Shown here: positions 6,691 through 63,143 of the stretch, piece after piece
How the letters are laid out: every line of letters starts with the position of its first letter
How positions within the stretch are numbered: the first letter of the stretch is position 1
From: a virus
Virus record (IMG/VR): IMGVR_UViG_3300008954_003554
Span: 1-64,000 of that record
Direction: 5' to 3' (one strand)
Length of the DNA stretch: 64,000 bases
The notes under the pieces: generated by a model
Databases searched by the model: none
Seen by the model: the letters and a program-made list of their open reading frames with translations, nothing else
What the model was told of the DNA's origin: nothing
Program-made: the position numbers and the translations under genes

Positions 6691-7113
6691 ATGAAGAAGC
6701 TTACTGCTAGAGAACTTCGAAGAATCATTCGAGAGGAGACAATTTCGATCGGAGGTAGAGAAATGGATGTAAGTGTTCAGGGCGGGGATATCTACGTTGA
6801 TGAAGACTTGGACGGTAAAGACGATTATCAGTACTCTGCTAAAGTCATGGGCAGGGGCGCAGATATTAGTGATTTCTCATATGACACCGGGACTGAGACG
6901 CTCAATGCAAAGGGAAGCGTCGGGCTCTTTGGGTTTGACGAAGATATGCCGCCTCCTGATGCTGAGGACATGGCCAGGGACCTTGGAGATGATGAGATTA
7001 TAATATCTAAGAATGATGGCGGTCCGGCCTATGATGTTACATTAACAAAGGTAAATGAGGTTCGTAGATTAATAAGGATGCTAGTGCGTGAGGAGATCAT
7101 AAGAGAGAGATGA
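6691..7113 (+). CDS. Tagged protein with a tag-like helix at both ends
   Basis: 140 residues. The N-terminus MKKLTARELRRIIREE is a clear tag. The last 20 residues (NEVRRLIRMLVREEIIRER) repeat the same helix pattern. The body is acidic, with DEDLDGKDDYQ resembling a calcium loop. Its stop overlaps the next start (ATGA), so the C-terminal copy directly abuts the next gene's tag. No enzymatic motif. Confidence 0.75.
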   Translation: MKKLTARELRRIIREETISIGGREMDVSVQGGDIYVDEDLDGKDDYQYSAKVMGRGADISDFSYDTGTETLNAKGSVGLFGFDEDMPPPDAEDMARDLGDDEIIISKNDGGPAYDVTLTKVNEVRRLIRMLVREEIIRER

Positions 7114-8645
7114 AGATTACCCTCGCTAAGCTAGAAAACCTTATTAATGAAGAGCTAAGAGCTCTTAACGAGGCTCCTTCTATGCCATGGGAAGATGATT
7201 TTGGCTGGGATGATGTGGGAGGATGGGCAAAGACTGCTGCTATCGGCGGACCGTCTTCGGCAATTGCGCTTGCGCATGCAAAGACTGTCGGGGCAGCATC
7301 TGGTGAGTTGACCAAGGTTGCATGGAATAAGCTTGGGCCGTCAAATGCGCAGATCATTGCTTACCTAGATACCTGGGCAATGGAGCACCCTACAGTGAAG
7401 AAGCTAGTGGCCTCGGAAGGCAGGGGCATAACACGATATCTTCTTAAAAATCTCCCAGAGCCTACAAAATCAATAACCCTGACACCGTACAAAGGGAAGA
7501 ATGTTAGCATTAAAGTCATTCTGGACACAGACGGGGATGCATCTGTTATTCTTCAAGCCTCCTTCGCTCGCCAAGGTGTGACCCTAAAGTATGACCTTGA
7601 TGATCTTCTTCTCAATTATCTTTCAACTGATAGTGGATTTGATACATGGACAGCCGGGTTTGCATCTTCAATTATTGAACAACTCGAGCCAATGATCCAT
7701 AATCTGGTGGCCACAAAAGACACGCTTGACAAGGGGGTAAAATTTATAACCACCGCGGGTGGCCTCCTCGGAGATGAAGAAGATGAGGGTGATGGTGAGG
7801 AAGAGACCCTTGATGTTCAGGCCGTGATAAAAGACGTAAGGAGAAGAATAAACGGTCAGATTACCAGAAACATAGTTCCCCGCAAGAGCGAAATAATCTC
7901 AGGAGTCGAAGAGATATTTGACGGTGTTAAATCTTTTGTTGAGGATCATCCGTCCTACATAGTAGGACATTACGTTGTCCAGTGGCTGTCAACCCTCGAT
8001 GTACCCGGTGACTGGCAGTCGGAATGGGAAACCAGGGCAGCCAAAGAAATAGCAGAGATGATTGAATCTGAAATGGAGTCTGCTGACTTGTTTACAAAAA
8101 TAGGAAAAGCTCTTCAACCTCTCGATCGTGCCATAGAGCAACAATTTGGCATGAATGAAAATATACACAACCAAAAAATCGCTATGACAAAAACGGAGAT
8201 TAGACAAATCATACGAGAAGAGCTGAAGATAGGCTTTGAACGCCTGCCCGGAGGTTCCTATAAGATGTATGATCCTGATCCAGACGATTCTACTTTCACC
8301 ATATCTGCCGAGCCTCTAAGAAATTCCGAGGTAAGGCTTAAGATAGAAGAGTATTTGGGATTTGATAGTGAGAAAGATATCGATCGATTTCTTCGAATTC
8401 ACAATGAGCCTCTAAGCATGATATTCTGGCATGCACAGAAACAAGGCGGTGAGCTATTATCAGCTTGGGATAATGCCAAGGATTATATTGATACCATGTC
8501 CGAGAAAGATATGCTAATGAAGAACAGACCTATCCGCCAAAAAAGAATTGCCAAGCAGATCATAAGTGAAGATGTTGATCGAGACAGTGAGTCACAAGGT
8601 GACATAGTCGGTGAGCCTCCGGGAATGCCGGATCCTACAGCATAA
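7110..8645 (+). CDS. Large tagged protein with an internal second tag
   Basis: 511 residues. The N-terminal tag MKITLAKLENLINEELRALNE ends in an LNE site. A second tag (MTKTEIRQIIREEL) sits at about residue 359, after NENIHNQKIA. It divides the protein into a ~355-residue module and a ~150-residue module, as if two tagged proteins had fused. An acidic linker (DEEDEGDGEEE) lies near residue 225. No enzyme motif recognised. Confidence 0.72.
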   Translation: MKITLAKLENLINEELRALNEAPSMPWEDDFGWDDVGGWAKTAAIGGPSSAIALAHAKTVGAASGELTKVAWNKLGPSNAQIIAYLDTWAMEHPTVKKLVASEGRGITRYLLKNLPEPTKSITLTPYKGKNVSIKVILDTDGDASVILQASFARQGVTLKYDLDDLLLNYLSTDSGFDTWTAGFASSIIEQLEPMIHNLVATKDTLDKGVKFITTAGGLLGDEEDEGDGEEETLDVQAVIKDVRRRINGQITRNIVPRKSEIISGVEEIFDGVKSFVEDHPSYIVGHYVVQWLSTLDVPGDWQSEWETRAAKEIAEMIESEMESADLFTKIGKALQPLDRAIEQQFGMNENIHNQKIAMTKTEIRQIIREELKIGFERLPGGSYKMYDPDPDDSTFTISAEPLRNSEVRLKIEEYLGFDSEKDIDRFLRIHNEPLSMIFWHAQKQGGELLSAWDNAKDYIDTMSEKDMLMKNRPIRQKRIAKQIISEDVDRDSESQGDIVGEPPGMPDPTA

Positions 8646-13440: not shown

Positions 13441-13635
13441 ATGAAAATTAATTGTCGACATCTTAGAGACTATAACATATCGTGGATTGATCACCACAAG
13501 AGGGCTGTAAAGTGGGCATGGACTATGCAAAAAGCTACGATATGCCTGACTATTCACTCAATTCTCCCCTGGGCTTTTGAATCTTACGCATCCGCTAGAG
13601 TTCACGAGATATCGAAAGAAATGAGAGTACAGTGA
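13441..13635 (+). CDS. Small membrane protein, DUF6356-like
   Basis: 64 residues. HHKRAVKWAWTMQKATICLTIHSILPWAFESYASARVHEIS resembles the DUF6356 pattern (His/Pro-containing single membrane helix, S...I..L). A weak ribosome-binding site precedes it. It overlaps the start of the tagged gene at 13632 by 4 nt (GTGA). Confidence 0.55.
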   Translation: MKINCRHLRDYNISWIDHHKRAVKWAWTMQKATICLTIHSILPWAFESYASARVHEISKEMRVQ

Positions 13636-14222
13636 GAGTTACATACAGACAGCTAAGACAAATTATTAGAGAGGCTCTAGAGAAGCCTCTCCCCACGGGT
13701 GCGTGGGAGTTTACAGAAGAAGAAAGAGAAGATCTCCGGTCCATCGGTGATTGGGTTCTTCCTGCAGAGTATGAAAATATCCAAATTGATATGAAGGATA
13801 GTGAGATTCCCAAGGTTAAGAAAAAAATAATATCAGCCCTAGAGCTTCTTTCTAAAAAAGCCAGGCCGGAATTTGAGATAGTTCGAAATAATCTAAAAAA
13901 GATAACGTCTGGTGAAAAAAGCGGGATCGACATAAGAAACAAAAAATTCTCTGTATCTGATGTTTCTATTTTAGATCAGACGACCGAGTGGCTTGCAAGC
14001 ATAATTTATCATGATGCATATCATGTTGAGCAAGGTGAGAAGGGCTGGCATAAAAAAGATAGAGAGACACCTGCAAATCTTAAGCAGCTAGATCTCCTAA
14101 GAAAGCTCGGAGCTGACAATGAAATTGCCCATCTCGCGGCTGTTATAAAAGCAGGCGACCACTCAGACCTTGATGGAGATGGAGACTTTGATATGGACGA
14201 TTATAATTTAAGGACTTATTAA
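13632..14222 (+). CDS. Tagged zincin-like protein with C-terminal EF-hand loop
   Basis: 196 residues from GTG 13632. The N-terminal tag is MRVTYRQLRQIIREALEKPLP. Mid-protein SIIYHDAYHVEQGEKG has an H-x-x-x-H arrangement on a helix, suggesting a zincin-like site, although the Glu of HExxH is replaced (HDAYH). A DLDGDGDFDMDDY calcium loop lies near the C-terminus. First member of the long tagged cluster. Confidence 0.7.
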   Translation: MRVTYRQLRQIIREALEKPLPTGAWEFTEEEREDLRSIGDWVLPAEYENIQIDMKDSEIPKVKKKIISALELLSKKARPEFEIVRNNLKKITSGEKSGIDIRNKKFSVSDVSILDQTTEWLASIIYHDAYHVEQGEKGWHKKDRETPANLKQLDLLRKLGADNEIAHLAAVIKAGDHSDLDGDGDFDMDDYNLRTY

Positions 14223-14223
14223 A

Positions 14224-14982
14224 ATGAAAATCACACGTAGACAATTAAGACAGATCATCAAGGAAGAGCTAAGCAGGCTAGATGAGAGTATGAGCGTGGA
14301 CACCATGGAGGCTCTTGAAAATGCTGTAAAGAGCGGCAACAGGGAAGAACTTAATCGTGTCTTAAAGATTGCGTATGAGGAAGGAATGCGCTCTTACTCT
14401 CCGGACCAAAGAGTCATAGGAATCCCTGGCAAGACAGGGGATCGACCTGTGGATCCTGATCCACACGCTGAGGTTGTCAACACACTTGTATCTCTTGTGA
14501 AAAGCATGCAAGATGACACAGACAGTGATCGTGTCGAGAAGCTAGACCCTGATCTTCTGAAAGGCGCGTATGTATCTTCAAAAGAAGATCGGGAGGCTAT
14601 GAAAGATTACATTGCTAAGTTAAAGGCGAAGAAAAAGTCTATGGACACCGACGGTGACGGTGCTCTCGACGCAGATGAACTGAGAGCTATCGCTGACGAT
14701 CTAGAAGGAGAAGGCCAGGATCCTCCTAAAAGCTTTAGTGTTCCATACAGAAGCTCCGGCTATCAAGGTAGGCGTATCATCTCACGTGACAGGGCGTGGC
14801 TTGAGTTTGTACCCAAGGGAAACCCGTCCCGGACTCCGGAAGACATGTTTAGAGAAGTTACCCTACTCAAGAACTGGGATCCAGAGATTCAAAAGGCTCT
14901 AGACGCCTCCGATCATGACCTCTCGAGAGGCGATATAGATCAGTACGACGTTTACAGCGTGTACGCAACGACAACAGGATAA
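14224..14982 (+). CDS. Tagged EF-hand protein
   Basis: 252 residues. A textbook tag, MKITRRQLRQIIKEEL, then SRLDE gives an LDE site. At about residue 141 there is a canonical 12-residue EF-hand loop, DTDGDGALDADE, followed by LRAIADDLEG. That LRxIADDLE continuation recurs in the proteins at 17396 and 18526. The C-terminal half has no recognised family. Starts right after the upstream stop. Confidence 0.78.
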   Translation: MKITRRQLRQIIKEELSRLDESMSVDTMEALENAVKSGNREELNRVLKIAYEEGMRSYSPDQRVIGIPGKTGDRPVDPDPHAEVVNTLVSLVKSMQDDTDSDRVEKLDPDLLKGAYVSSKEDREAMKDYIAKLKAKKKSMDTDGDGALDADELRAIADDLEGEGQDPPKSFSVPYRSSGYQGRRIISRDRAWLEFVPKGNPSRTPEDMFREVTLLKNWDPEIQKALDASDHDLSRGDIDQYDVYSVYATTTG

Positions 14983-15339: not shown

Positions 15340-16044
15340 ATGAAAATCACACGCAAACAATTAAGACAGATTATTGAGGAGACGGCGGGTCCCGAAGGGG
15401 CTGATGATTTTGCAATACCCCAGCTTTCAGCCCATGATTTAAAGCTTAGGGCAAGTACAGACCATGTTCTCGATCTTCGTCGTAAGATGCAAAACGTGAA
15501 ATGGATGAGTCCAGAGTGGAAACGGATGCATGATGAGGTAAAAGAAATACAAGCTTCATACACAGATGTTGAGACAACCGCTACACACCCACTTGATGTG
15601 GATGGCGATGGTAAGTTGACAATATCTGAAATGAAAATCACACGTGGACAATTAAGACAAATCATCAAAGAGGAAAGATCCAAACTTCTCTCAGAAGGTG
15701 TCACTAGCGAAGCAGCAAGAATAGGAAGAGAGTTGAACAACATACCAAGTCAGGCAATGCGCGCTGTTGGCGGTGATTTTTCAAAGCTTAATGACGCAGT
15801 TAATAAAGCTCAAGAAAAAATATTTGTTGACATCTTTCTGTCATACATGGATCAGAATCTTGCAAAGATGGATCAGCGGTATGGTCTCTCACCGGGTCAA
15901 GCGCATGACGTTGCAGACAGGGCAAGGGCTAGATATCAGGATATGCTTAGCAATATGGGAGCCATCTCTACAGAGATTGGAGAGGCGATCAAGCCATTCA
16001 TGAGGCTACTTGGGAAGTATTCTGAGGACATGGAGTTGGGATAG
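15340..16044 (+). CDS. Double-tag fusion protein with EF-hand joint
   Basis: 234 residues, GGAGACTAAA before the ATG. Tag 1 at residues 1-15 heads a ~70-residue cargo. The EF-hand loop DVDGDGKLTISE then leads straight into a second complete tag, MKITRGQLRQIIKEE, at about residue 98, with its own cargo (LLSEG...). The joint I-S-E/M fits an [LI]xE cleavage site. The same joint occurs at the end of the gene at 26259. It looks like two tagged genes fused in frame. Confidence 0.8.
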   Translation: MKITRKQLRQIIEETAGPEGADDFAIPQLSAHDLKLRASTDHVLDLRRKMQNVKWMSPEWKRMHDEVKEIQASYTDVETTATHPLDVDGDGKLTISEMKITRGQLRQIIKEERSKLLSEGVTSEAARIGRELNNIPSQAMRAVGGDFSKLNDAVNKAQEKIFVDIFLSYMDQNLAKMDQRYGLSPGQAHDVADRARARYQDMLSNMGAISTEIGEAIKPFMRLLGKYSEDMELG

Positions 16045-16434: not shown

Positions 16435-17391
16435 ATGAAAATCACACGCAAACATTTAATAAGGATAATCAAGGAAGAGCTTCTAAGAGAGCAGTATCAA
16501 CCTCATGAGCCCGGGATTAGAACTGATGAAGACGGTCTAGCCAGGTCTTACGGAAGAAGGGTTGCTGACAACGTTTATATGCATGATAATGTGGACAGAG
16601 ACGGAAGTAAATATTTCGAAAGCCCCGGTGCGATGACCGGTGTGCCAGACGCTGTGCTTATCCTTACGGGATCCGGCACAGAAAGAATAAGGCCTGAGCC
16701 CACGCCTAAGCCTGAGCCCATGCCCGAGCCGGCATCTGATCCGTCGCCCACACCTGAGCCTGAACCTGAGACTCAGACCCAATACCAGCCTCGGTCATGG
16801 ACCGACGACGAATCCGTTACTAAGAGCTCTATTAAGTCTCGATGGTTTCCAAAGTTCGCCAAAACTGATACAACTTCATCACCAAACGGAAGCTATGTAG
16901 ATCTCGTTGATAATGATGGTGACGGGCCATGGTACGTCACACCTGGAATGGGAGGATTAGATCAGAGTCACTTCGACAGAGATGGATGGGTCTGGTGGAA
17001 GATGACCAAGAAGGGAATATATTACACACCCAAAAAGCCAGGAGGAAGAGTTGGAGACTGGGATGACAGCGGAGATTCAGATATTGCATATGCCCCTATG
17101 GAAATTAGTGCTGATCTACCTGGGGGATACAGTATCAAAAATTTTAACCTTGATAACATGTTCTATAGATTTGGCGGGAAGACCGGACTTGGCTTAGAGG
17201 GTGATATCAATCTCGTCGGATCGGGCCTTCGACCGGACGTCAGTAGGTCTAATAGGCAAATGAATCAGCTTACTGACTGGGGTACCTTGCGGACATTTCT
17301 TAGCAGACTCTTTAGAACCGGTTCATCATCATTGACATTAAATATTGACACAACTATAGGGGACGTCCCCATAACTCTTTCAGTAGGATAG
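16435..17391 (+). CDS. Tagged protein with Pro-Glu linker and beta C-terminal domain
   Basis: 318 residues. Tag MKITRKHLIRIIKEELLRE, then QYQPHEP (the LREQYQP motif). A PEPxP-type linker spans about residues 85-120. The C-terminal half is beta-rich and ends VPITLSVG, almost the same as the end of the protein at 20741 (DVTITLSVA), so the two share a C-terminal domain. An aspartate pair (DNDGDGPWYV) may bind calcium. Role unknown. Confidence 0.77.
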   Translation: MKITRKHLIRIIKEELLREQYQPHEPGIRTDEDGLARSYGRRVADNVYMHDNVDRDGSKYFESPGAMTGVPDAVLILTGSGTERIRPEPTPKPEPMPEPASDPSPTPEPEPETQTQYQPRSWTDDESVTKSSIKSRWFPKFAKTDTTSSPNGSYVDLVDNDGDGPWYVTPGMGGLDQSHFDRDGWVWWKMTKKGIYYTPKKPGGRVGDWDDSGDSDIAYAPMEISADLPGGYSIKNFNLDNMFYRFGGKTGLGLEGDINLVGSGLRPDVSRSNRQMNQLTDWGTLRTFLSRLFRTGSSSLTLNIDTTIGDVPITLSVG

Positions 17392-17395
17392 ATAG

Positions 17396-17935
17396 ATGAA
17401 AATCACTCGTAGACATCTAAGACAGATTATCAGAGAAGAATTAATTAGAGAGGCAGATCCGGATACCGATGCTGATGATGCAGCTGAGCTGAGAGATATT
17501 GCAGATGATCTTGAAACACAAAGCTTGGACCCGGTCGTCGATAGCTGGATTAAATTTGTTGATAGAAACTCTGATATAAAGGACACTCTGCTTTCCGCGT
17601 GGGAAAAGATGACTACAGGTACCTCTGATCCCTGGGAGGTAGCTAGTGAAGTCGGCGAGGCTATTGGCCTCCCGTGGATCGAAAAGGGCCAGTTCTATTT
17701 GCCTGACAGGGGTAGTAAAGAAGAGGGTCTGTCTAGCGTTCGAACGGGAGTTTTATGGCATGCAAAGAAGATGAGACCTGGGAAGAAGTATCTCAATAGA
17801 GGTGAGATTGAACAAGAGCTTGAGAGGCGAAAATCTGATCGAGACACAGCCAGATCAGCAATGAAACCTGCGCCCTTAAGTAAAAAACCCTATGGGGGCG
17901 GTTCTCGTTATAGACCCTGGGGTCGGTCAACCTAA
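17396..17935 (+). CDS. Tagged protein with DPDTDADD acidic motif
   Basis: 179 residues. Tag MKITRRHLRQIIREELIRE, then an acidic DPDTDADDAAELRDIADDLE motif shared with the protein at 18526. Near the C-terminus IEQELERRKSDRD is encoded by a 34-nt stretch identical to one in the gene at 22699. The tail is basic and Pro-rich. Function unknown. Confidence 0.75.
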   Translation: MKITRRHLRQIIREELIREADPDTDADDAAELRDIADDLETQSLDPVVDSWIKFVDRNSDIKDTLLSAWEKMTTGTSDPWEVASEVGEAIGLPWIEKGQFYLPDRGSKEEGLSSVRTGVLWHAKKMRPGKKYLNRGEIEQELERRKSDRDTARSAMKPAPLSKKPYGGGSRYRPWGRST

Positions 17936-18110: not shown

Positions 18111-18503
18111 ATGGAACTTATCTCGACACATTTTTGTAAAGCTGCGAACGTTGGATATCATGGAAATCTTTTTGGAGGAACTATGCTCGGATGGCTTGAT
18201 GAAGCCGGAGCGATATTTGCGTGTGAGGCATGTGACACTCCGAGAATGGTGACAAAAAAAATCACTGAGGTTGTATTCAATAAGCCAGTTCGACCAGGAC
18301 AAATTATAAAAATATACGGTGAAGTGGTGGGGGTTGGAAACAGGTCGATTACAGTTAGGCTAGAAGCCAGACGACACAGCGTGTACAATGGCTCTCAGCG
18401 CACTGTCCTGACTACAGATATGACTTTTGTAAGAATTGACGGTGACGGTGAGCCTATTCCTATTAGTGATAAAGTAAAATCTAAATATAGTGATTTATCG
18501 TAA
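18111..18503 (+). CDS. Hotdog-fold acyl-CoA thioesterase (YciA-like)
   Basis: 130 residues. GYHGNLFGGTMLGWLDEAGAIFA contains the N-x-x-x-G...D signature of YciA/ACOT-type hotdog thioesterases. VRPGQIIKIYGEVVGVGNRSITVRLEARR is the conserved second half. These enzymes hydrolyse acyl-CoA to free acid and CoA. No tag, and it is placed within the tagged cluster. A phage-carried thioesterase would act on host lipid metabolism; that is inference. Confidence 0.85.
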   Translation: MELISTHFCKAANVGYHGNLFGGTMLGWLDEAGAIFACEACDTPRMVTKKITEVVFNKPVRPGQIIKIYGEVVGVGNRSITVRLEARRHSVYNGSQRTVLTTDMTFVRIDGDGEPIPISDKVKSKYSDLS

Positions 18504-18512
18504 TATTTATCT
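18504..18512 (+). promoter_or_regulatory. Weak late-promoter-like TATTTATCT
   Basis: TATTTATCT directly past the thioesterase stop, 22 nt before ATG 18526. It differs from the TATTTAATA consensus at the end and has shorter spacing, so it is only a possible site. Confidence 0.3.
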
Positions 18513-18525
18513 ACAGGGACAATTG

Positions 18526-20292
18526 ATGAATCTAAAACTTTTAAGAAACATTATTAAGGAAGAAATGCTTCGTGAGCAAACTCCGAGAGAGAGGAAGCCC
18601 ACGAGCTGGTGGCTAAGGCAAGAAGTTCCTGAGACTCCTGCCTCCTCAGACACTCCCTGGCGGGCACTCTCTGACGATAGCTTTCCTATGCTTACTAAAA
18701 TATCTACGGGTAGCAGCAATGAGCTAATTAGATCTGGTGCGAGTAGTGAAAGCATTACTGAGTTGCAGAAAGCGCTAGTATCTCTTGGGTTTGATATTGG
18801 TAGATCTGGACCTAACAGCGACGGTGTCGACGGGAAGTGGGGCCGGAAAACCAGAAATGCTCTAATTGATTTTCAGACTGAGATGGTTGCGGACCACCCT
18901 GAGACATACACCACCGACGATATTGACGGTGTCGCAGGAGAAAAAACAGCCGCTGTCCTGCTAACATCACTCCTAGATGTACCCCCATATGATTCAGCCT
19001 CTCCAGAACCTGGGCCTGAAGATGATGATATCAGTCTTGACCTTGACTCTATTCAGAATCTTGGGAGAGTGCTGACTCCCGAAGAAGTTCCGCTGGAGCA
19101 GGTCGGTGATCAGGAGCCGTTTAGAATGGATACATCAGATGAGCCAGACGATTGGGATGAGGATCTTGCTGATGACTGGGAACATCTTCAGAATAGAACA
19201 AAAGGTTTTATTTCTGCAATGCCCGCTACTATCGCCTCAATGGGACATGCTAGAAATGTGGACGACGCAAAAGATCAGTCTGAGGACATCCTGGGTAGCG
19301 CATATAGAGATGCCTGGGACCAATCTGTAGCTGTTTATAACTTCCCATATTTGTGGGATCTTAGAGTTAGAAGACAAAACCCAGAACTTCAACCGGGAGA
19401 TTATTACAAGTTCGGACAAGCCGAGGATGAGGGAAGACTGGAGATGATGCAGCAAGCTCTCAGAGATCTGGGTGCCAGCGGTGACACTAAAGGTGTATAC
19501 AACAATACATCTTCAAGCCAATATATACAGGTGTTTGACGATTGGGAAGCTTTGACTGGAGGTGATCTCGATAATCATCGAAACAATCGACAAGCAGCCT
19601 ATCGACTTCTTTATGATAGGATTCACGATACCTATGCTAACGGACACGGAGACGGCAAAGCAATTGATGTACCCCTTTTTCGAGGTGCAAGAGACGTTCT
19701 AGATAAGGCAGAGCAAATTGCTGGCGTTAATCACAAGACGCACAAAGAAGCCGACCACTGGCACGTAACAATTTCTGAAAATGAGGATTTAAAAATGGAA
19801 AAAGAAAAAAGAAAAATGACACTCCTGGAAAGAAACATTCAGGCATTTCTTGTGGAGTCAGACCCAGATACGGATGCTGATGATTCCGATGAGCTTAGAG
19901 ATATTGCAGATGACCTTGAAGGATCTAAAAGTTACTCTATGTCTGCACAGTTGCAAGACGTTATGGGGCCCGATGAGCTTGAGGCATACGGGGCGAGTTA
20001 CGATGAAGGAGGAGATCCTACAGATGATGACCCGCGAAACGACCTGGCAGATAACCTTAATAACGCTGTATACGCTGCAAAAGTTTCCAAAATGGATCTA
20101 AAGAATATAATTGATGTTCTTGCTGAAATTCTTGTTACGTCACAGGGATATGATGAAGTTGCTGTTCTTGACGCATTTAGTAGTTATGTCAGAGCTGCAG
20201 ACGAGGGTGCCCACAGGTGGATGATGAGGGAAAGAAGACTATTTGAAGCTTCACGAGGAAGATGGCAGAAACTTTCTGGTCTCACAGAGTAG
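18526..20292 (+). CDS. Large tagged peptidoglycan-binding + M15-like peptidase
   Basis: 588 residues from ATG 18526 (ACAGGGAC upstream). The start MNLKLLRNIIKEEMLRE is a shortened tag with an LRE site. A PG_binding_1-type domain follows (ITELQKALVSLGFDIGRSG, DGVDGKWGRKTRNALIDFQ). Near residues 380-420, GHGDGKAIDVPLF and ADHWHVTI give an M15-like zinc ligand set. A second tag-like helix (TLLERNIQAFLVESDPDTD) then leads to the DPDTDADD...IADDLE motif and a C-terminal helical module. Likely a virion-carried or late wall hydrolase. Confidence 0.76.
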   Translation: MNLKLLRNIIKEEMLREQTPRERKPTSWWLRQEVPETPASSDTPWRALSDDSFPMLTKISTGSSNELIRSGASSESITELQKALVSLGFDIGRSGPNSDGVDGKWGRKTRNALIDFQTEMVADHPETYTTDDIDGVAGEKTAAVLLTSLLDVPPYDSASPEPGPEDDDISLDLDSIQNLGRVLTPEEVPLEQVGDQEPFRMDTSDEPDDWDEDLADDWEHLQNRTKGFISAMPATIASMGHARNVDDAKDQSEDILGSAYRDAWDQSVAVYNFPYLWDLRVRRQNPELQPGDYYKFGQAEDEGRLEMMQQALRDLGASGDTKGVYNNTSSSQYIQVFDDWEALTGGDLDNHRNNRQAAYRLLYDRIHDTYANGHGDGKAIDVPLFRGARDVLDKAEQIAGVNHKTHKEADHWHVTISENEDLKMEKEKRKMTLLERNIQAFLVESDPDTDADDSDELRDIADDLEGSKSYSMSAQLQDVMGPDELEAYGASYDEGGDPTDDDPRNDLADNLNNAVYAAKVSKMDLKNIIDVLAEILVTSQGYDEVAVLDAFSSYVRAADEGAHRWMMRERRLFEASRGRWQKLSGLTE

Positions 20293-23230: not shown

Positions 23231-24295
23231 ATGAAAATTACAAGAAGACAACTGAGAAGGCTAGTTGAGGTTGAGGTCAAGCTGACGGATGAGGAGATGA
23301 ACGCTGCAAGAGACGAGTTAATGCAGAAAGGTGGAACTTCAGACCCAGGAGACTTTGTTCAAGCTGTCAGGATGGCATCAGCTGATGATACTGACGAAGA
23401 TCTTTCAGATGAAGAGCTTTTGAAAATAGTCACAGATCAAGTTGATGATATCGCTGTTCATCCAATGGGAGACATCATTGACACCGAAAAACTTAATGAG
23501 GGATCTTGGGTGGGTTCTCGGAGAAAACTACTCCAGATTATTCAAGAAGAGCATGCTCGAATTGTGGAAGGCGACGTCGTCGGAATGTTCCCTCCGGGAC
23601 AGACAGCGATTCTGCAAATTGCAAGGGCACTAGCTTCCCGTGCTGAGGAGATGCTTGATCTCGACGGCGCTGGTGATGATATTGAGGTTCGTGTCGAACC
23701 AAACCTCTTTCTTACTCCTTACATAGATTTTGACGGACATGGCCAAGAGGTTCCCTCTCTTGCAAATCACGTCTATACCAACTATGTATCAGGAAAAGCC
23801 GGAGACCAGGCAGACTCGCTTGATGATATTCTTACGAGAATTAGTATTGACTATTTTGATGAACCCATTGAATACGCACTGGAGGCATTAGGTGATGACA
23901 GGTTCACAATGCCTGACACATATCACCAGGGTGATAAGTCGCAGATGATGAAGACAAAGGAGCTAGCATCTCAACAGGATCCCGAAGAGGTTGAGAAGAT
24001 GGGCATGGACTTTGAGAGATTCTTGCAAGGTATTGATCCAGAGGACCTGAGTGAGCAGCATCAGCCTCGCAACAACAAGCTGAATCAAGTAAATATACTT
24101 TTAGATGATGCTCTCAAACTTGTCGGAACGAACAACAAAGAAGCTTCCAGGAAGGTCCGGTCTGCTTCTAAAATTATGGACGGCGAGGCGGACGAGGGTG
24201 CTGTTGAGCAAGTTTCTCGTCTCGGTGACAAGCAAACAATAGTTGATATGAAGAGAATGGTAAACTCTAAGGGGTTTTCGTTTGCGCCAGACTAA
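23231..24295 (+). CDS. Tagged multi-module protein
   Basis: 354 residues, with TACGGAGGGG before the ATG. Tag MKITRRQLRRLVEVEVKL at the start. A second tag-like helix (SRRKLLQIIQEEHARIVEGD) follows KLNEGSWVG at about residue 95, and a LSEQHQPR motif lies at about residue 280. The three sites KLNE/G, RIVE/G and DLSE/Q could cut it into separate pieces. No enzyme motif found. Acidic throughout. Confidence 0.74.
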   Translation: MKITRRQLRRLVEVEVKLTDEEMNAARDELMQKGGTSDPGDFVQAVRMASADDTDEDLSDEELLKIVTDQVDDIAVHPMGDIIDTEKLNEGSWVGSRRKLLQIIQEEHARIVEGDVVGMFPPGQTAILQIARALASRAEEMLDLDGAGDDIEVRVEPNLFLTPYIDFDGHGQEVPSLANHVYTNYVSGKAGDQADSLDDILTRISIDYFDEPIEYALEALGDDRFTMPDTYHQGDKSQMMKTKELASQQDPEEVEKMGMDFERFLQGIDPEDLSEQHQPRNNKLNQVNILLDDALKLVGTNNKEASRKVRSASKIMDGEADEGAVEQVSRLGDKQTIVDMKRMVNSKGFSFAPD

Positions 24296-25980: not shown

Positions 25981-26259
25981 ATGAAAATAACACGCAGACA
26001 GCTAAGACAGATTATTAAAGAAGAAACTAGAAAACTATCAGAAGGGTGGGGTATAGATACTGGGATAGCGATTCCGAAACACGGCGTGACAATCGGTGAT
26101 GTCCAGGACGAGGCTATGAGGCTTGATCAAGACCTTTATTTCATTAACGACCGTGGAAAAACATATAAGGTGATGTCAGATGGTAATCTCCAAGGTCTGC
26201 CCGGAGATGAGCTTCCATCAGGTGTTGATGATAGATTAGTATATACAAGGAGATCATAA
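25981..26259 (+). CDS. Tagged small protein
   Basis: 92 residues. Tag MKITRRQLRQIIKEETRKLSE, LSE before GWGIDTG. Cargo is beta-rich (GKTYKVMSDGNLQGLPGDE). A TATAAT-like box at 25959-25964 lies upstream without a good -35. 1-nt overlap (TAATG) with the next gene. Confidence 0.75.
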   Translation: MKITRRQLRQIIKEETRKLSEGWGIDTGIAIPKHGVTIGDVQDEAMRLDQDLYFINDRGKTYKVMSDGNLQGLPGDELPSGVDDRLVYTRRS

Positions 26260-26870
26260 TGAAAATCACGCGCAGACAGCTAAGGCAGATCATTAAGGAA
26301 GCTGGCGGGTATCGTGATTATTCTGATGATGAAGTTGAATATACCTCGCGTGCCGGAACATTATATGACGAGCTCCCTGGCTTAGGCCCGAGAGACGATC
26401 ATCTTGAAAACATAAGTTCGCAAGACATGGCTGACGCAAAAAGACATGCGGGTGATGACCCAAAGGCACAAGCAGATTATCTCGACATCAGTGTTGAAGA
26501 TTGGAATCGAATTCGCCAAGAGACAGATGATTGGTACGAAGAGAGACACATTCTTGATCAGATGGAGATGGTTGATGACAAATTTATTGACTGGTCCAGA
26601 GACTTAGCAAAAGCTTTGAAGTATAGAAGCGTTGAAGATATGCCTGCCGATATGACAAGTGATTCTTACGGAGGACCCTATGATGCTTGGGACAGAGGTG
26701 TAAGTCCTGCAGACTATGCAGCGAGTGCTTATTCTCCAGGGCTAGATAAGACTTCTTCGGGCGGGAGGCACCCGCTCGACGTCGACGGAGACGGAAAGCT
26801 GACAATATCTGAAATGAAGATCACGCGTAGACAGCTAAGAAGAATCATAAGAGAGGCTGCTGAGATATAA
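26259..26870 (+). CDS. Tagged protein with EF-hand and a second tag at its C-terminus
   Basis: 203 residues. Tag MKITRRQLRQIIKEAGG. The cargo is helical and acidic (LDISVEDWNRIRQETDDWYEE). The end reads HPLDVDGDGKLTISE followed by MKITRRQLRRIIREAAEI and stop. This EF-hand/tag joint is the same peptide as at about residue 85 of the 15340 protein, but with many synonymous base changes. The second tag has no cargo, like a fusion whose following gene was lost. Confidence 0.78.
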   Translation: MKITRRQLRQIIKEAGGYRDYSDDEVEYTSRAGTLYDELPGLGPRDDHLENISSQDMADAKRHAGDDPKAQADYLDISVEDWNRIRQETDDWYEERHILDQMEMVDDKFIDWSRDLAKALKYRSVEDMPADMTSDSYGGPYDAWDRGVSPADYAASAYSPGLDKTSSGGRHPLDVDGDGKLTISEMKITRRQLRRIIREAAEI

Positions 26871-32203: not shown

Positions 32204-33259
32204 ATGGATATCAAGACCTTCGCATCCACCGTTCGCGCCCTTCCGGCCGACGTCTCCGTTCTTATTCGAGGCCCACACGGGATCGGTAAGTCCCACCTCG
32301 CCGAGAAAGCGGCTGAGGACATAGGGCTGCCCCTCATCGACCGGCGTCTCTCGCAGATGTCCGAAGGTGACCTGGTCGGGTTGCCGGAACTGGTGGACGG
32401 TGTCACCCGCTTCTGCCCTCCGGACTGGTACGCTCGGGCTTGCCGCGAACCGGTGGTTCTCCTCCTGGACGAAATCAACCGGGCGACCCCGGAGCTCCAG
32501 CAGGGAGCCTTCCAGATCGTTCTGGCCCGGGAGCTTAACGGCCACAAGCTGCACCCCGACACCCGCGTCATCGCGGCAGTCAATGCCTCGGCAGAATACC
32601 AGGTGAACGAGATGGATCCGGCTCTGCTGGACCGATTCTGGGTTGTGGACCTGGACCCCACCACCGATGATTGGATCGAGTGGGCATCTGGCCCTGGAGA
32701 TATTGACTCGGTCATCGTGGACTTCATTCGCCACAATCCGGCTCACCTTCGATTCAAGGGACAGGCGGAGCCGGATAAGATCTACCCCTCTCCTCGGTCC
32801 TACGACCGGTTGAACCACACCTTGCAGCACGCCTCGATGGCACCTTCCGAGGTGGCTGGAGACGTCAAGTCGAACGTTGGATTCTACGCCATCTCTCACG
32901 GCTTCCTCGGTACCGAGGCTGCTATCGCCTTCCGGGACTTCGTTGATAACTACGAACTCCAGGTATCTCCGGAGGACGTGCTGAATGACTACAAGAAGAA
33001 CAAGAAGTCTCTTGAGGCGCTCACCAATGATCAGGGGAATGGTCTGATCGCCAAGGTGGTTGACCACTGCAAGCAGAACAGCTGGACGGTGGATCAGTGC
33101 TCCAACCTCTCCAAGTGGGCTAAGACCCTGCCTGGTGAGATGATGGTGAGTCTCTGGAACGGTGTGATGGAGACCAAGGAGGTCAAGAACATCACCAAGC
33201 TCCACAAGTTCCTGGGTCAGTCTGTTGTTGAAGCAGTTCAGCGGTCACGCAGTCTGTAG
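32204..33259 (+). CDS. MoxR-type AAA+ ATPase
   Basis: 351 residues. Walker A GPHGIGKSHLAEK at about residue 26, Walker B VLLLDEINRA near residue 85, sensor-1 VIAAVNASAEY and an arginine-finger-type MDPALLDRFWVVDL follow the MoxR/dynein-related AAA+ order. MoxR ATPases act as chaperones that load or remodel metal-containing partners, usually with a VWA protein encoded next door, as here. GC-rich codon use differs from the AT-rich right end. Confidence 0.9.
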   Translation: MDIKTFASTVRALPADVSVLIRGPHGIGKSHLAEKAAEDIGLPLIDRRLSQMSEGDLVGLPELVDGVTRFCPPDWYARACREPVVLLLDEINRATPELQQGAFQIVLARELNGHKLHPDTRVIAAVNASAEYQVNEMDPALLDRFWVVDLDPTTDDWIEWASGPGDIDSVIVDFIRHNPAHLRFKGQAEPDKIYPSPRSYDRLNHTLQHASMAPSEVAGDVKSNVGFYAISHGFLGTEAAIAFRDFVDNYELQVSPEDVLNDYKKNKKSLEALTNDQGNGLIAKVVDHCKQNSWTVDQCSNLSKWAKTLPGEMMVSLWNGVMETKEVKNITKLHKFLGQSVVEAVQRSRSL

Positions 33260-33270
33260 TTGTCCTGCCC

Positions 33271-33305
33271 CCTCCCGTGTAGCACACACGGGAGGGTGGT
33301 ATAAT
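33271..33305 (+). promoter_or_regulatory. Promoter TGTAGC-N16-TATAAT superposed on a hairpin
   Basis: A 10-bp perfect stem CCTCCCGTGT/ACACGGGAGG (33271-33280 with 33286-33295) has a 5-nt loop. TGTAGC (33278-33283) lies across the loop and TATAAT at 33300-33305 follows. The hairpin may end the upstream transcript while the same DNA starts the next. Confidence 0.82.
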
Positions 33306-33322
33306 ATAGTCAGGAGGTACTA

Positions 33323-34621
33323 ATGGAACCCATGGAACAGAAAGATCAAGGCACCGCGACCGAGCTTCCGAGCAAGCTGGAAGCCACTGATGAACAGGTG
33401 TCTCGATTCAAGCTCGATGATCATCTCGTCAACCTCATGTTGCACGAGCCTTTCTTCAGTCAGGTGATGGTTAAGCTCAACAAGTCAGAGACCAGCGCGG
33501 TGCCGACAGCAGGCGTCATGGTGAAGGACTGTGTCCCTCACTTCGTCTGGAACCCTCGATTCGTAGCAGCACTCTCGGCACTCAAGGTGCGAGGGCTTCT
33601 CAAGCACGAGTGCTACCATCTCATCTTCAATCACTGCACCCAGCGTCGACAGGAGCCACACCGTGTGTGGAACTTCGCCACCGACCTGGCCATCAACTCA
33701 ATCATTCCTCGCAAGGAGCTGCCAGACGGTGGTCTCTTCCCGGGTGAGGCACTCGACCTAAGCGGGATCACAGATCCCGAGCGGTTGAAGAAGTGGCAGA
33801 AGGTATCAGACCTGATCGCCTCGTTTCCTACCGAGAAGTCAGCTGATTGGTACTTCACCGAGCTGATGAAGGACCCTGAGATCTCTGAGACCATCGAGCC
33901 GGAGCCCGGTGAGGGTGAGCCCGGTGGGATGGACGATCACGAAGGCTGGGGTGACATGTCTGATGAGGAACGTCAGGTGGTCGAAGGCCGCATCAAGCAG
34001 GCACTGGCAGAGGCAACTCGACGCTGTGATGGTAACGGGCAGTGGGGATCGGTCCCTAGCTCCGTCCAATCTCGAATCCGTCAGATGGTAAGTAACGAGG
34101 TGGACTGGAAGTCGCTTCTCAGGAACTTCTGTGGTCGGACACAAAGGGCTCACCGAAGCTCGACCATGAAGAGAATCAACCGGAAGTATCCGTACATTCA
34201 CCCTGGTCGGAAGCGAGGTCACAGCGCTCACCTGGCCATCTACCTCGATCAGTCCGGTTCGGTTGCTGACGATGATATCGCCCTGCTGTTTGGTGAGCTC
34301 AACAACCTGGGCCGGATGGTTGAGTTCACGCTCATCCCGTTCGACTCCACTGTGGACACAGAGAACGAGATGAAGTGGCGACGCGGTGCCAAGGTCCCAC
34401 CCCAGCGCTGGCGGTCAGGAGGTACCTGCTTCGATGCTGTGGCTAAGCACGCTGTCGAGAATAAGCACCGATTTGACGGCTACATCGTCCTCACTGACGG
34501 TGAGTGCTCTGATCCCGGGCCATCAAAGATGCGACGGGCCTGGGTGATCGTTCCAGATCGGAAGCTCTACTTCAAGCCACACCCCAAGGATATGCTCATC
34601 AATATGAAGCGTAGCGTGTAG
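33323..34621 (+). CDS. VWA protein with putative metallopeptidase-like N-terminus (DUF2201 type)
   Basis: 432 residues, CAGGAGGTACTA before the ATG. N-terminal half: FVAALSALKVRGLLKHECYHLIFNHCTQR has an H-E-x-x-H motif typical of the DUF2201 metallopeptidase-like domain. An acidic linker (EPGEGEPGGMDDHEGW) follows. C-terminal half: VWA domain with AIYLDQSGSV (D-x-S-x-S) and IVLTDGECSD. This is the standard partner of the MoxR ATPase upstream. Confidence 0.88.
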   Translation: MEPMEQKDQGTATELPSKLEATDEQVSRFKLDDHLVNLMLHEPFFSQVMVKLNKSETSAVPTAGVMVKDCVPHFVWNPRFVAALSALKVRGLLKHECYHLIFNHCTQRRQEPHRVWNFATDLAINSIIPRKELPDGGLFPGEALDLSGITDPERLKKWQKVSDLIASFPTEKSADWYFTELMKDPEISETIEPEPGEGEPGGMDDHEGWGDMSDEERQVVEGRIKQALAEATRRCDGNGQWGSVPSSVQSRIRQMVSNEVDWKSLLRNFCGRTQRAHRSSTMKRINRKYPYIHPGRKRGHSAHLAIYLDQSGSVADDDIALLFGELNNLGRMVEFTLIPFDSTVDTENEMKWRRGAKVPPQRWRSGGTCFDAVAKHAVENKHRFDGYIVLTDGECSDPGPSKMRRAWVIVPDRKLYFKPHPKDMLINMKRSV

Positions 34622-60614: not shown

Positions 60615-60650
60615 TTATAATGTATTGGACAGGTGGAAATAAATATAAAC

Positions 60651-61826
60651 ATGTCGATATTCAAATCAAACCCAAGGCATGCAGATAGATCAGCATCAGA
60701 CAGGTCTCGTCATAAGAAAAAGATAGCGCATGCCATAAGAGAGGGAATTCATCATATTGTATCTGATGAGTCAATTATTGGAAAAGATGGAAAGAAAAAA
60801 ATCAAAATCCCAGTCAGGGGAATTAAAGAATATAGGTTTGTATTTGGGGATAACAACAGAAAAAAAGTAGGTTCGGCACCGGGAAAGGATATCTCAAGGG
60901 GACAGCGGATAGGACAGTCTGATCAGCAGCAGCAAGGGTCAGGAAACAAACCGGGAAATGAAGAGGGTGAGGAGTATTACGAAGTAGAAATAACCCTAGA
61001 AGAGTTAAGTGAATATCTTTTTGATAGCCTTAAGCTTCCCGATATTGAAAAAAAGAAATTCAAAAGCATAGTTGGAGAAAAATATAAAAGATCAGGATAC
61101 AGAAAAAAAGGTATTCGTCCCAGGCTGTCGAAGAAACAAACACTTATTAATAAAATAAAGCGTAGAAAAAAAGCCTATTTTGAAAATAGTGAAGATGAGA
61201 ATGAAAGATTTCCATTCCACAAAGATGATTTAAAATATCATCATATTAAAACTAAACCAAAAGAAGTAACAAGCGCTGTTATATTTTTTATGATGGATGT
61301 TTCTGGATCCATGACGCAGACAAAAAAGTTCATGGCACGATCTTTTTTCTTTCTCTTGTATCATTTCTTGAGAGCAAAATATAATAATGTTGAAATAGTT
61401 TTCATATCTCACACAACAGTTGCCAAAGAAGTTTCTGAAGATGAGTTCTTTACAAGAGGAGCTAGCGGGGGTACCAAAATATCTTCTGCTCTAGAGCTAT
61501 GTCTTGACATTGTCAATAAGCGTTTTCATCCTTCCGCGTGGAATATATACACTTTTCACTGTTCAGACGGAGATAATTGGACCGATGATAATGAAAAGTG
61601 TGTTTCACTTTCTAGAACTATCAAATCACTTTCACAACTTTACTGTTTTGTTGAAATAACACCTGAAATATTTGAAAATGATGGAAATACAACCTTTGGA
61701 TTTTCCCAAGAAAGTAAAATATCCAACTCATACACACCGATGAAAGATTCTAAATTTAAAATAGTAAACCTGTTTCACAGTGATGACATATGGAAAGAAT
61801 TTAAAAGAATATTTGGAGGAAGCTAG
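60651..61826 (+). CDS. YeaH/YhbH-family (DUF444) VWA protein
   Basis: 391 residues from ATG 60651 (GTG 60633 possible). DRSASDRSRHKKKIAHAIREGIHHIV, KIPVRGIKEYRFVFGDN, and the YEVEITLEELSEYLFDSLKLP segment match UPF0229. The VWA domain starts at FFMMDVSGSMTQTKKFMARSFFFLLYHFL and contains the HCSDGDNW motif of E. coli YeaH. YeaH works with the kinase YeaG (PrkA) in stationary-phase and nitrogen-starvation survival. Here the partner genes follow directly. AT-rich. Confidence 0.9.
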   Translation: MSIFKSNPRHADRSASDRSRHKKKIAHAIREGIHHIVSDESIIGKDGKKKIKIPVRGIKEYRFVFGDNNRKKVGSAPGKDISRGQRIGQSDQQQQGSGNKPGNEEGEEYYEVEITLEELSEYLFDSLKLPDIEKKKFKSIVGEKYKRSGYRKKGIRPRLSKKQTLINKIKRRKKAYFENSEDENERFPFHKDDLKYHHIKTKPKEVTSAVIFFMMDVSGSMTQTKKFMARSFFFLLYHFLRAKYNNVEIVFISHTTVAKEVSEDEFFTRGASGGTKISSALELCLDIVNKRFHPSAWNIYTFHCSDGDNWTDDNEKCVSLSRTIKSLSQLYCFVEITPEIFENDGNTTFGFSQESKISNSYTPMKDSKFKIVNLFHSDDIWKEFKRIFGGS

Positions 61827-63143
61827 ATGTCTGACTGGTCAATGAAAGATTTAGAAACCTGGGATGAGAAGATTATACAGATTGCCAAGGGATATAATTT
61901 AGATTGGTTTCCAATAAACTATGAAATATCCGACTACTATGACATGATTGGTAGCATGGTATATCATGGGATGCCATCACACTACGGTCACTGGTCTTAT
62001 GGAAAATCATTTGAAAGAACTCATTTAAACTATAATTTTGGGATGACTGGGTTGCCATACGAGCTTATAATCAATTCGAATCCATCGATTGCGTATCTTA
62101 TGAAAGAAAATCCTCTATACCTTCAGATATTGATTATGGCTCACTGTATTGGACATTCTGATTTTTTTAAAAATAGTAGAATATTTTCACACACAAGGCC
62201 CGGGGACATTGTTACCAAGCTTAGAAGTGCAAAAAAGAGAATTCAAAAATATTCTGAAGATCCGGGTATTGGAATGGAAAAAGTAGAGAAGACTCTTGAC
62301 TCTCTAAGGTCGATACAGTATCAAACGAGCAGATTTAATCTTCCTCAGCTTTCACATGTAGAGAAAAAAAGAAGAATTGTAGAAAAAATAAATAAAACTA
62401 GTTCAAAAAAAGAAAGTGCAAAACTTAGAGAGAGTCTAGATAGGATTCCAGTTGAGCCAGAAACAGATCTTTTATGGACAATTCTTGAATTTGGAAACCA
62501 CATACCCGAATGGAAAAAAGATATTATAAACATAGTAAGAGAAGAATCTCTCTACTTTATACCCCAGATTAGAACAAAAATTTTAAATGAAGGGTGGGCC
62601 AGTTTTTGGCACTATAGAATATTAAATGATCTAAATCTGCCTCAAAAGTATCATATTCCATTTTTAAGAAGTCACAATCAAGTAATTAGACCCCATTTGG
62701 GTGGAATTAATCCGTATCATTTGGGATTTTATTTATTTGACAAGGTAGAGAAAAGAGACGGAATAGAGGAATGTTTTCTAATTAGAGAAATACATGATGA
62801 TGCCTCTGCAATTAGGTTCCTATTGGAACAAGAAGATTGTGAAAATTTAAACCTATTCTCCTATTCAAAGAAAAAAAAGCTAACTTCAATAGACGATGTC
62901 TCTGATGACGTGGGGTGGAGAAACATTAAGAATGATCTAGTAATGACAACAGGGGTTAACTCTATCCCTGTAATCGGAGTTGATGAAATTTTATCTGATG
63001 GTACTTTAATTTTATTACACGACCATGACGGAAGAGATTTAGAGTTAAATTATGCCGAAGAGGTTGTCGAGCATATTAGATATTTATGGGATAGAGATGT
63101 TAAGCTGTTTACGATTATCGAAGAAGAAACGTGGGAAATCTAA
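61827..63143 (+). CDS. SpoVR/YcgB-family protein
   Basis: 438 residues starting right after the YeaH stop. EISDYYDMIGSMVYHGMPSHYGHWSYGKSFERTHLNYNFGMTGLPYELIINSNPSIAYLM... and NEGWASFWHYRILN and GINPYHLGFYLF are the SpoVR signature. It is somewhat shorter than E. coli YcgB. Named for spore cortex formation in Bacillus; in Gram-negatives it is linked to the YeaG/YeaH pathway. Function at molecular level unknown. Confidence 0.92.
   Translation: MSDWSMKDLETWDEKIIQIAKGYNLDWFPINYEISDYYDMIGSMVYHGMPSHYGHWSYGKSFERTHLNYNFGMTGLPYELIINSNPSIAYLMKENPLYLQILIMAHCIGHSDFFKNSRIFSHTRPGDIVTKLRSAKKRIQKYSEDPGIGMEKVEKTLDSLRSIQYQTSRFNLPQLSHVEKKRRIVEKINKTSSKKESAKLRESLDRIPVEPETDLLWTILEFGNHIPEWKKDIINIVREESLYFIPQIRTKILNEGWASFWHYRILNDLNLPQKYHIPFLRSHNQVIRPHLGGINPYHLGFYLFDKVEKRDGIEECFLIREIHDDASAIRFLLEQEDCENLNLFSYSKKKKLTSIDDVSDDVGWRNIKNDLVMTTGVNSIPVIGVDEILSDGTLILLHDHDGRDLELNYAEEVVEHIRYLWDRDVKLFTIIEEETWEI

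Follow-up and report, generated by a model that had tools for sequence, protein, structure and literature searches.

Only a few proteins are known to carry the capsid targeting sequence (CTS) of phage T4, which has been used to build protein-delivery phages. Such sequences, 10–19 residues long, load the internal proteins of T4, whose protease gp21 cleaves after L/I-X-E (PMC9026906). The T4 protein Alt is processed by gp21 at both ends, at ITE-6 and LTE-619 (PMC5694885), and a propeptide of 65 residues is removed from gp23 (PMC9026906). Another described system, the polyvalent proteins of phages and plasmids, is made of shuffled modules; it has been proposed that these proteins are packaged and that some of them are processed (PMC5512222).

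We have analysed a window of 64,000 nucleotides, which is part of an 83,333-bp uncultivated virus record and in which a short conserved N-terminal peptide (hereafter the tag) is found on otherwise unrelated proteins. The T4 internal proteins IPI, IPII and IPIII (PMC9026906, PMC3012670) show the same arrangement, including an [LI]xE end, and the tagged viruses further resemble the T4 internal-protein system in having an S77 protease and a gp23-type capsid protein. Unlike the T4 CTS, the tag is about 22 rather than 10–19 residues long, has another sequence and is detected in up to 26 copies per genome. Tags are here also located internally and C-terminally within fused cargos, unlike those of the T4 internal proteins. 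The polypeptides are multi-domain and their modules are shuffled, as in polyvalent proteins (PMC5512222), but the module borders are putative capsid-type tags; since no known polyvalent enzymatic domain was found in the proteins encoded at 15340 and 26259 using Pfam and PHROGs, we do not place them in that class. In the literature searched, we found neither a match to the tag peptide nor a description of a concatenated variant of CTS-tagged internal proteins.

The tag and the viruses that carry it

Across 350 distinct N-terminal tags the consensus is about MKITKRQLRRIIKEE(L/I)xRLLxE, and conservation drops after residue 22. LxE peaks at residue 22 (115 of the 350 tags) and lies within residues 18–28 in 176 of them (50%, against a background of 8%), although these counts are not independent because the set includes related viruses. 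Searches with a tag HMM recovered 571 copies at a score of at least 8 bits, compared with a single copy in reversed sequences. The tag DNA pattern occurs in viral contigs, and many among the matches listed are 100–290 kb in length.

The gp21-type S77 protease is present in 20 of the 21 tagged records of at least 100 kb and in 9 of 16 large tagless control contigs (P = 0.007, Fisher's exact test), so that S77 is a partly specific marker of the tag. The tag itself was found in none of 19 control contigs. A gp23-type capsid protein is likewise encoded in 20 of the 21 tagged records of this size. In the capsid proteins of the group, an L[RK]E at about residue 60 is invariant (19/19); it precedes a Gly/Ser-rich stretch and a conserved VRR segment, and we read it as corresponding to the end of the gp23 propeptide in T4. 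Neither S77 nor gp23 was found in the window's own 83-kb contig, which is an incomplete fragment, and we infer their presence in this virus from its relatives. The parallels with the T4 CTS, the co-occurrence with S77 and gp23, and the LxE end point to a T4-type capsid targeting sequence as the probable identity of the tag, which would function accordingly. A preliminary description of the window had proposed cleavage by an [LI]xE rule, to which ISE/M conforms; this rule fits the lineage, in which S77 is present, LxE ends the tag and the capsid LxE is invariant.

A second shared motif, EQ[YH][EQ]PR, is found in several tagged proteins, often just past LxE (genes at 16435, 20262, 20741, 23231, 28548, 49341 and 51549). 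Many tags also occur in five contigs (L156, L157 and L159–L161) that have been binned as Halobacteriovorax and Methylococcaceae MAGs, and the genomes of these bins contain an S77 protease; they are probably mis-binned phage, or else a hint at the host.

The genes at 15340 and 26259

The gene at 15340 encodes a polypeptide with two tags (Table 1). The peptide HPLDVDGDGKLTISE is joined in frame and without a gap to a complete second tag, which ends in the sequence motif LLSE/G, and the same peptide followed by a tag recurs at the end of the protein encoded at 26259. Both occurrences had been pointed out in the preliminary description and were confirmed by reading the open reading frames. No homolog of 15340 was found in phage records, nor a convincing one of either half among 38 related records, and the two structure models made are of low confidence (pLDDT 55). 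It had been proposed that a sequencing frameshift might explain the fusion. A second, near-identical contig, IMGVR_UViG_3300007512_002660, carries both genes with one mismatch in 12,871 nt (15340) and none in 12,887 nt (26259), which excludes a frameshift or an assembly error as the source of the fusion. This contig possibly comes from a related sample and thus indicates that the sequence is real, not that the fusion is old.

Table 1. Positions of tags, EF-hand units and cargos in the window
Positions	Strand	Feature	Remarks
8178..8222	+	Internal tag IAMTKTEIRQIIREE	In ORF 7110-8645
14166..14201	+	EF-hand loop DLDGDGDFDMDD	C-terminus of tagged 13632-14222; abuts next tagged gene
14224..14982	+	Tagged two-cargo fusion	Cargo A, EF unit, cargo B
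14638..14712	+	EF-hand unit around DTDGDGALDADELRAIADDLEGEG	At cargo junction of 14224; without [LI]xE
15340..16044	+	Two-tag fusion ORF	234 aa; also in second contig
15340..15384	+	N-terminal tag MKITRKQLRQIIEET	In 15340
15385..15585	+	First cargo of 15340	No relative found
15586..15630	+	EF-hand linker HPLDVDGDGKLTISE	In 15340; candidate cut ISE/M at its end
15631..15696	+	Internal tag MKITRGQLRQIIKEERSKLLSE	In 15340; 22 residues, ends LSE; upstream Shine-Dalgarno absent
15697..16041	+	Second cargo of 15340	No relative found
17462..17533	+	Degenerate EF-like unit DTDADDAAELRDIADDLE	Directly after tag of 17396; sister copy at 19867-19938, after tag in ORF 18490
23507..23551	+	Internal tag-like segment WVGSRRKLLQIIQEE	After LNEGS in ORF 23231-24295
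26259..26870	+	Cargo with tags at both ends	203 aa; also in second contig
26412..26567	+	SQDMADAKRH domain of 26259	L019 homolog has a tag after it
26583..26750	+	RDLAKAL domain of 26259	66% identity to L151/L345
26769..26813	+	EF-hand linker HPLDVDGDGKLTISE, second copy	In 26259
26814..26867	+	C-terminal tag MKITRRQLRRIIREAAEI	In 26259; upstream Shine-Dalgarno absent

The protein encoded at 26259 begins with the tag MKITRRQLRQIIKEA and, judged from its domains, is a mosaic. Past the IRE of its second tag there are four residues (AAEI), so that it is a single cargo tagged at its C-terminus and not a fusion of two proteins. The proposal that both genes encode fused tagged proteins therefore holds for 15340 and fails for 26259. 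In the relatives L151 and L345, the RDLAKAL domain is followed by VREN and a tag, whereas HPLDVDGDGKLTISE and a tag are located at the same boundary in 26259. The use of different linkers at one boundary suggests that tags mark the borders of cargos and outlast changes of linker. Like T4 Alt (PMC5694885), the 26259 protein is a putative head cargo in which both termini bear candidate processing elements; unlike Alt, to which it is unrelated, it carries one tag family at both ends, and its C-terminal tag follows an EF-hand linker.

EF-hand units at cargo junctions

The two coding copies of HPLDVDGDGKLTISE are identical at 36 of 45 nucleotides, and the nine differences are all synonymous, which bears out the many synonymous differences reported in the preliminary description; the 60 nucleotides 5′ of the two copies are unrelated (14/60 identical). 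Silent changes make up 23% of the possible single substitutions in this stretch, and nine silent differences out of nine would arise by chance with a probability of about 2×10−6, suggesting that the peptide is under selection.

The loop DVDGDGKLTISE fits D-x-D-x-D-G-x-[ILV]-x-x-x-E in both proteins, in line with its initial identification as a canonical 12-residue EF-hand loop, and in this respect it is like EF-hand calcium-binding loops. It differs from a typical EF-hand in being a single loop that scores below the Pfam cut-off and in that the tag would serve as its exiting helix. In both proteins the loop is matched by Pfam EF-hand_6 and EF-hand_1 with E values of 0.006–0.02 (0.006–0.007 for EF-hand_6 alone), under the gathering cut-off, as expected for a single loop; the loop region is of low confidence in the models, with pLDDT below 50.

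EF-hand-like loops are found in 6 of 349 tagged ORFs and in 1 of 2542 untagged ORFs of at least 100 amino acids (P = 2×10−5), an untagged set that includes spurious ORFs. All of those in the window are located at junctions or ends (15340, 26259, 13632 and 14224). By sequence comparison 14224 is the clearest case of an EF junction: L027 and L180 encode a separate tagged protein similar to its cargo A, and its cargo B stands alone as a tagged protein in L051, L076 and L345, a relative of 236 kb. Its EF unit is without [LI]xE, which suggests that the EF unit is a junction element itself and not simply a cleavage site. The EF-plus-tag module was found in no other viral contig by its DNA pattern.

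Other tagged viruses show related features. In L120, an ORF on the minus strand with a tag at residue 52 has two adjacent EF-hand loops, DANGDGNLSPEE and DLDQDGIVTIDD, which form a classical pair. A linker of the GMGRRTE[SG] type, a counterpart of HPLDVDGDGKLTISE, recurs before tags in L138, L093, L091 and L120.

Multi-tag fusions across the virus group

About 35 distinct ORFs carry two tags according to the tag HMM, a frequency that is biased upward since loci were chosen by the tag and some by an internal tag. Among the internal tags, 33 have no start codon at their first residue, which rules out that these are misread starts of genes. Cargos that follow an internal tag often exist in relatives as N-tagged proteins of their own. 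For example, the second cargo of L151 is 92% identical to its counterpart in L019, with YTEST-IKITRRQLRQIIKEE in the former at the place of the N-terminal tag in the latter, and other second cargos match stand-alone tagged genes at 68% (L154 and L070) and 74% (L138 and L049), with further cases. About eight internal tags with such stand-alone counterparts begin at a non-start codon. C-terminal tags with little after them also recur (26814, L139, L137, L032, L078 and L093). Multi-tag cargo chains thus appear from sequence to be a habit of the group. These results establish that tagged proteins are indeed fused, that such fusions recur in the group and that they alternate with unfused versions in relatives. 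The search for unfused relatives suggested earlier succeeded for the group and for 14224, and found none for the halves of 15340.

Candidate cleavage and alternative explanations

The explanation that best accounts for the fusions and how often they recur, for the unfused counterparts and for the joint occurrence of the tag with the protease and a gp23-type capsid protein is, with a probability of roughly 0.6, T4-type, CTS-tagged modular head cargo with multiple tags, most likely cut at [LI]xE by S77. We infer packaging, cleavage, delivery and any calcium binding from sequence. The tag of about 22 residues ending in LxE would direct a variety of small proteins to the prohead of a large T4-like virus. 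In the virus group, tagged cargos have been joined time and again into multi-tag polypeptides, 15340 being one of them. The EF-hand peptide would be this virus's conserved junction unit and would present the next tag. During head maturation, the gp21-type S77 protease would most likely cut after Glu (ISE/M before the tag and LSE/G after it), and the separated cargos would enter the host together with the DNA. In this distant T4-like lineage a single tag is carried by up to dozens of proteins, with tagged cargos chained. If cutting is confirmed, several head proteins could be made from one gene in a fixed ratio, and the tags would point, from sequence alone, to a large set of likely injected host-takeover or counter-defence proteins. 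The fused and unfused pairs offer natural junctions for studying protease specificity and multi-cargo loading.

Many M-started "internal" tags (preceded by EGK and the like) may be an in-frame Shine-Dalgarno sequence plus a start, and the statistics of upstream residues were therefore limited to tags at non-start codons. Glu is found within the four residues before 22 of 32 such tags (background 31%, P = 1×10−5), and a complete [LI]xE within the last eight residues before 8 of 32 (background 9%, P = 0.007), a weaker signal. Glu before it and LxE after it make each internal tag look like a spacer that could be excised. The suggestion of polyproteins cut by one protease is thus partly supported: its architecture is borne out, cutting is a prediction from anatomy, and ISE/M is a candidate site.

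The main rival explanation, which we consider doubtful, is that these are stable multi-domain cargos with no cut at ISE/M, whose extra tags either strengthen binding to the prohead core by avidity or are neutral leftovers of recombination, and whose EF-hand linker is a spacer, perhaps Ca2+-bound. The strong enrichment of Glu right before internal tags argues against it, even though [LI]xE precedes just 8 of the 32; so do the unfused forms of the same cargos elsewhere and a lineage with both a gp21-type protease and an invariant capsid LxE. Stable cargos would account for the recurrent C-terminal tags with little after them and for the 14224 EF unit, which is without [LI]xE.

A more elaborate version of cleavage, which we regard as unlikely, is a plug-in polyprotein from which the prohead protease would excise interchangeable tag beads (N-terminal, internal and C-terminal), with EF-hand units as Ca2+-responsive junctions that would control folding or cutting as ions change in the head or in the new host.

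Recombination among tag copies is likely to be the origin of the fusions. Tags share synonymous codons at 0.51 (near copies) and 0.47 (far copies), against 0.36 expected from codon usage, which lends mild support to the earlier suggestion of tag capture by recombination, and tag-bounded domains are shuffled among viruses. That recombination is the whole explanation, the fusion having arisen recently and by chance when a stop codon was lost at a repeat and the fused state being functionless, is very unlikely given that the EF linker has been kept by selection and that a distant relative, although its linker differs, has retained the tag behind the RDLAKAL domain.

An independent translation start at the second tag, yielding fused and unfused forms from one gene, is hardly credible: an ATG opens both fused tags and a Shine-Dalgarno core lies at 26 of 39 M-started internal tags in relatives, but neither fused tag has such a core, against 16 of the 21 tags at N-termini in the window. 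The second tag is thus most probably made together with the rest of the fusion, and a start at 26814 would yield only an 18-residue peptide.

Other genes in the window

The gene at 18490-20292 encodes a tagged protein of 600 amino acids with an endolysin-type part (PHROG, E = 2.5×10−10) and an HWH motif, together with a second tag-like segment and a degenerate EF unit; it is possible that this protein is a lysin carried in the head. At 32204-34621, a gene for an AAA ATPase (AAA_5, MoxR-like) adjoins one for a DUF2201 metallopeptidase/VWA-like protein. Genes for a DUF444 protein (YeaH-like, E = 1.6×10−111) and for SpoVR (E = 1.5×10−112) adjoin each other at 60633-63143; DUF444/YeaH-like proteins and SpoVR are partners in the bacterial stress response.
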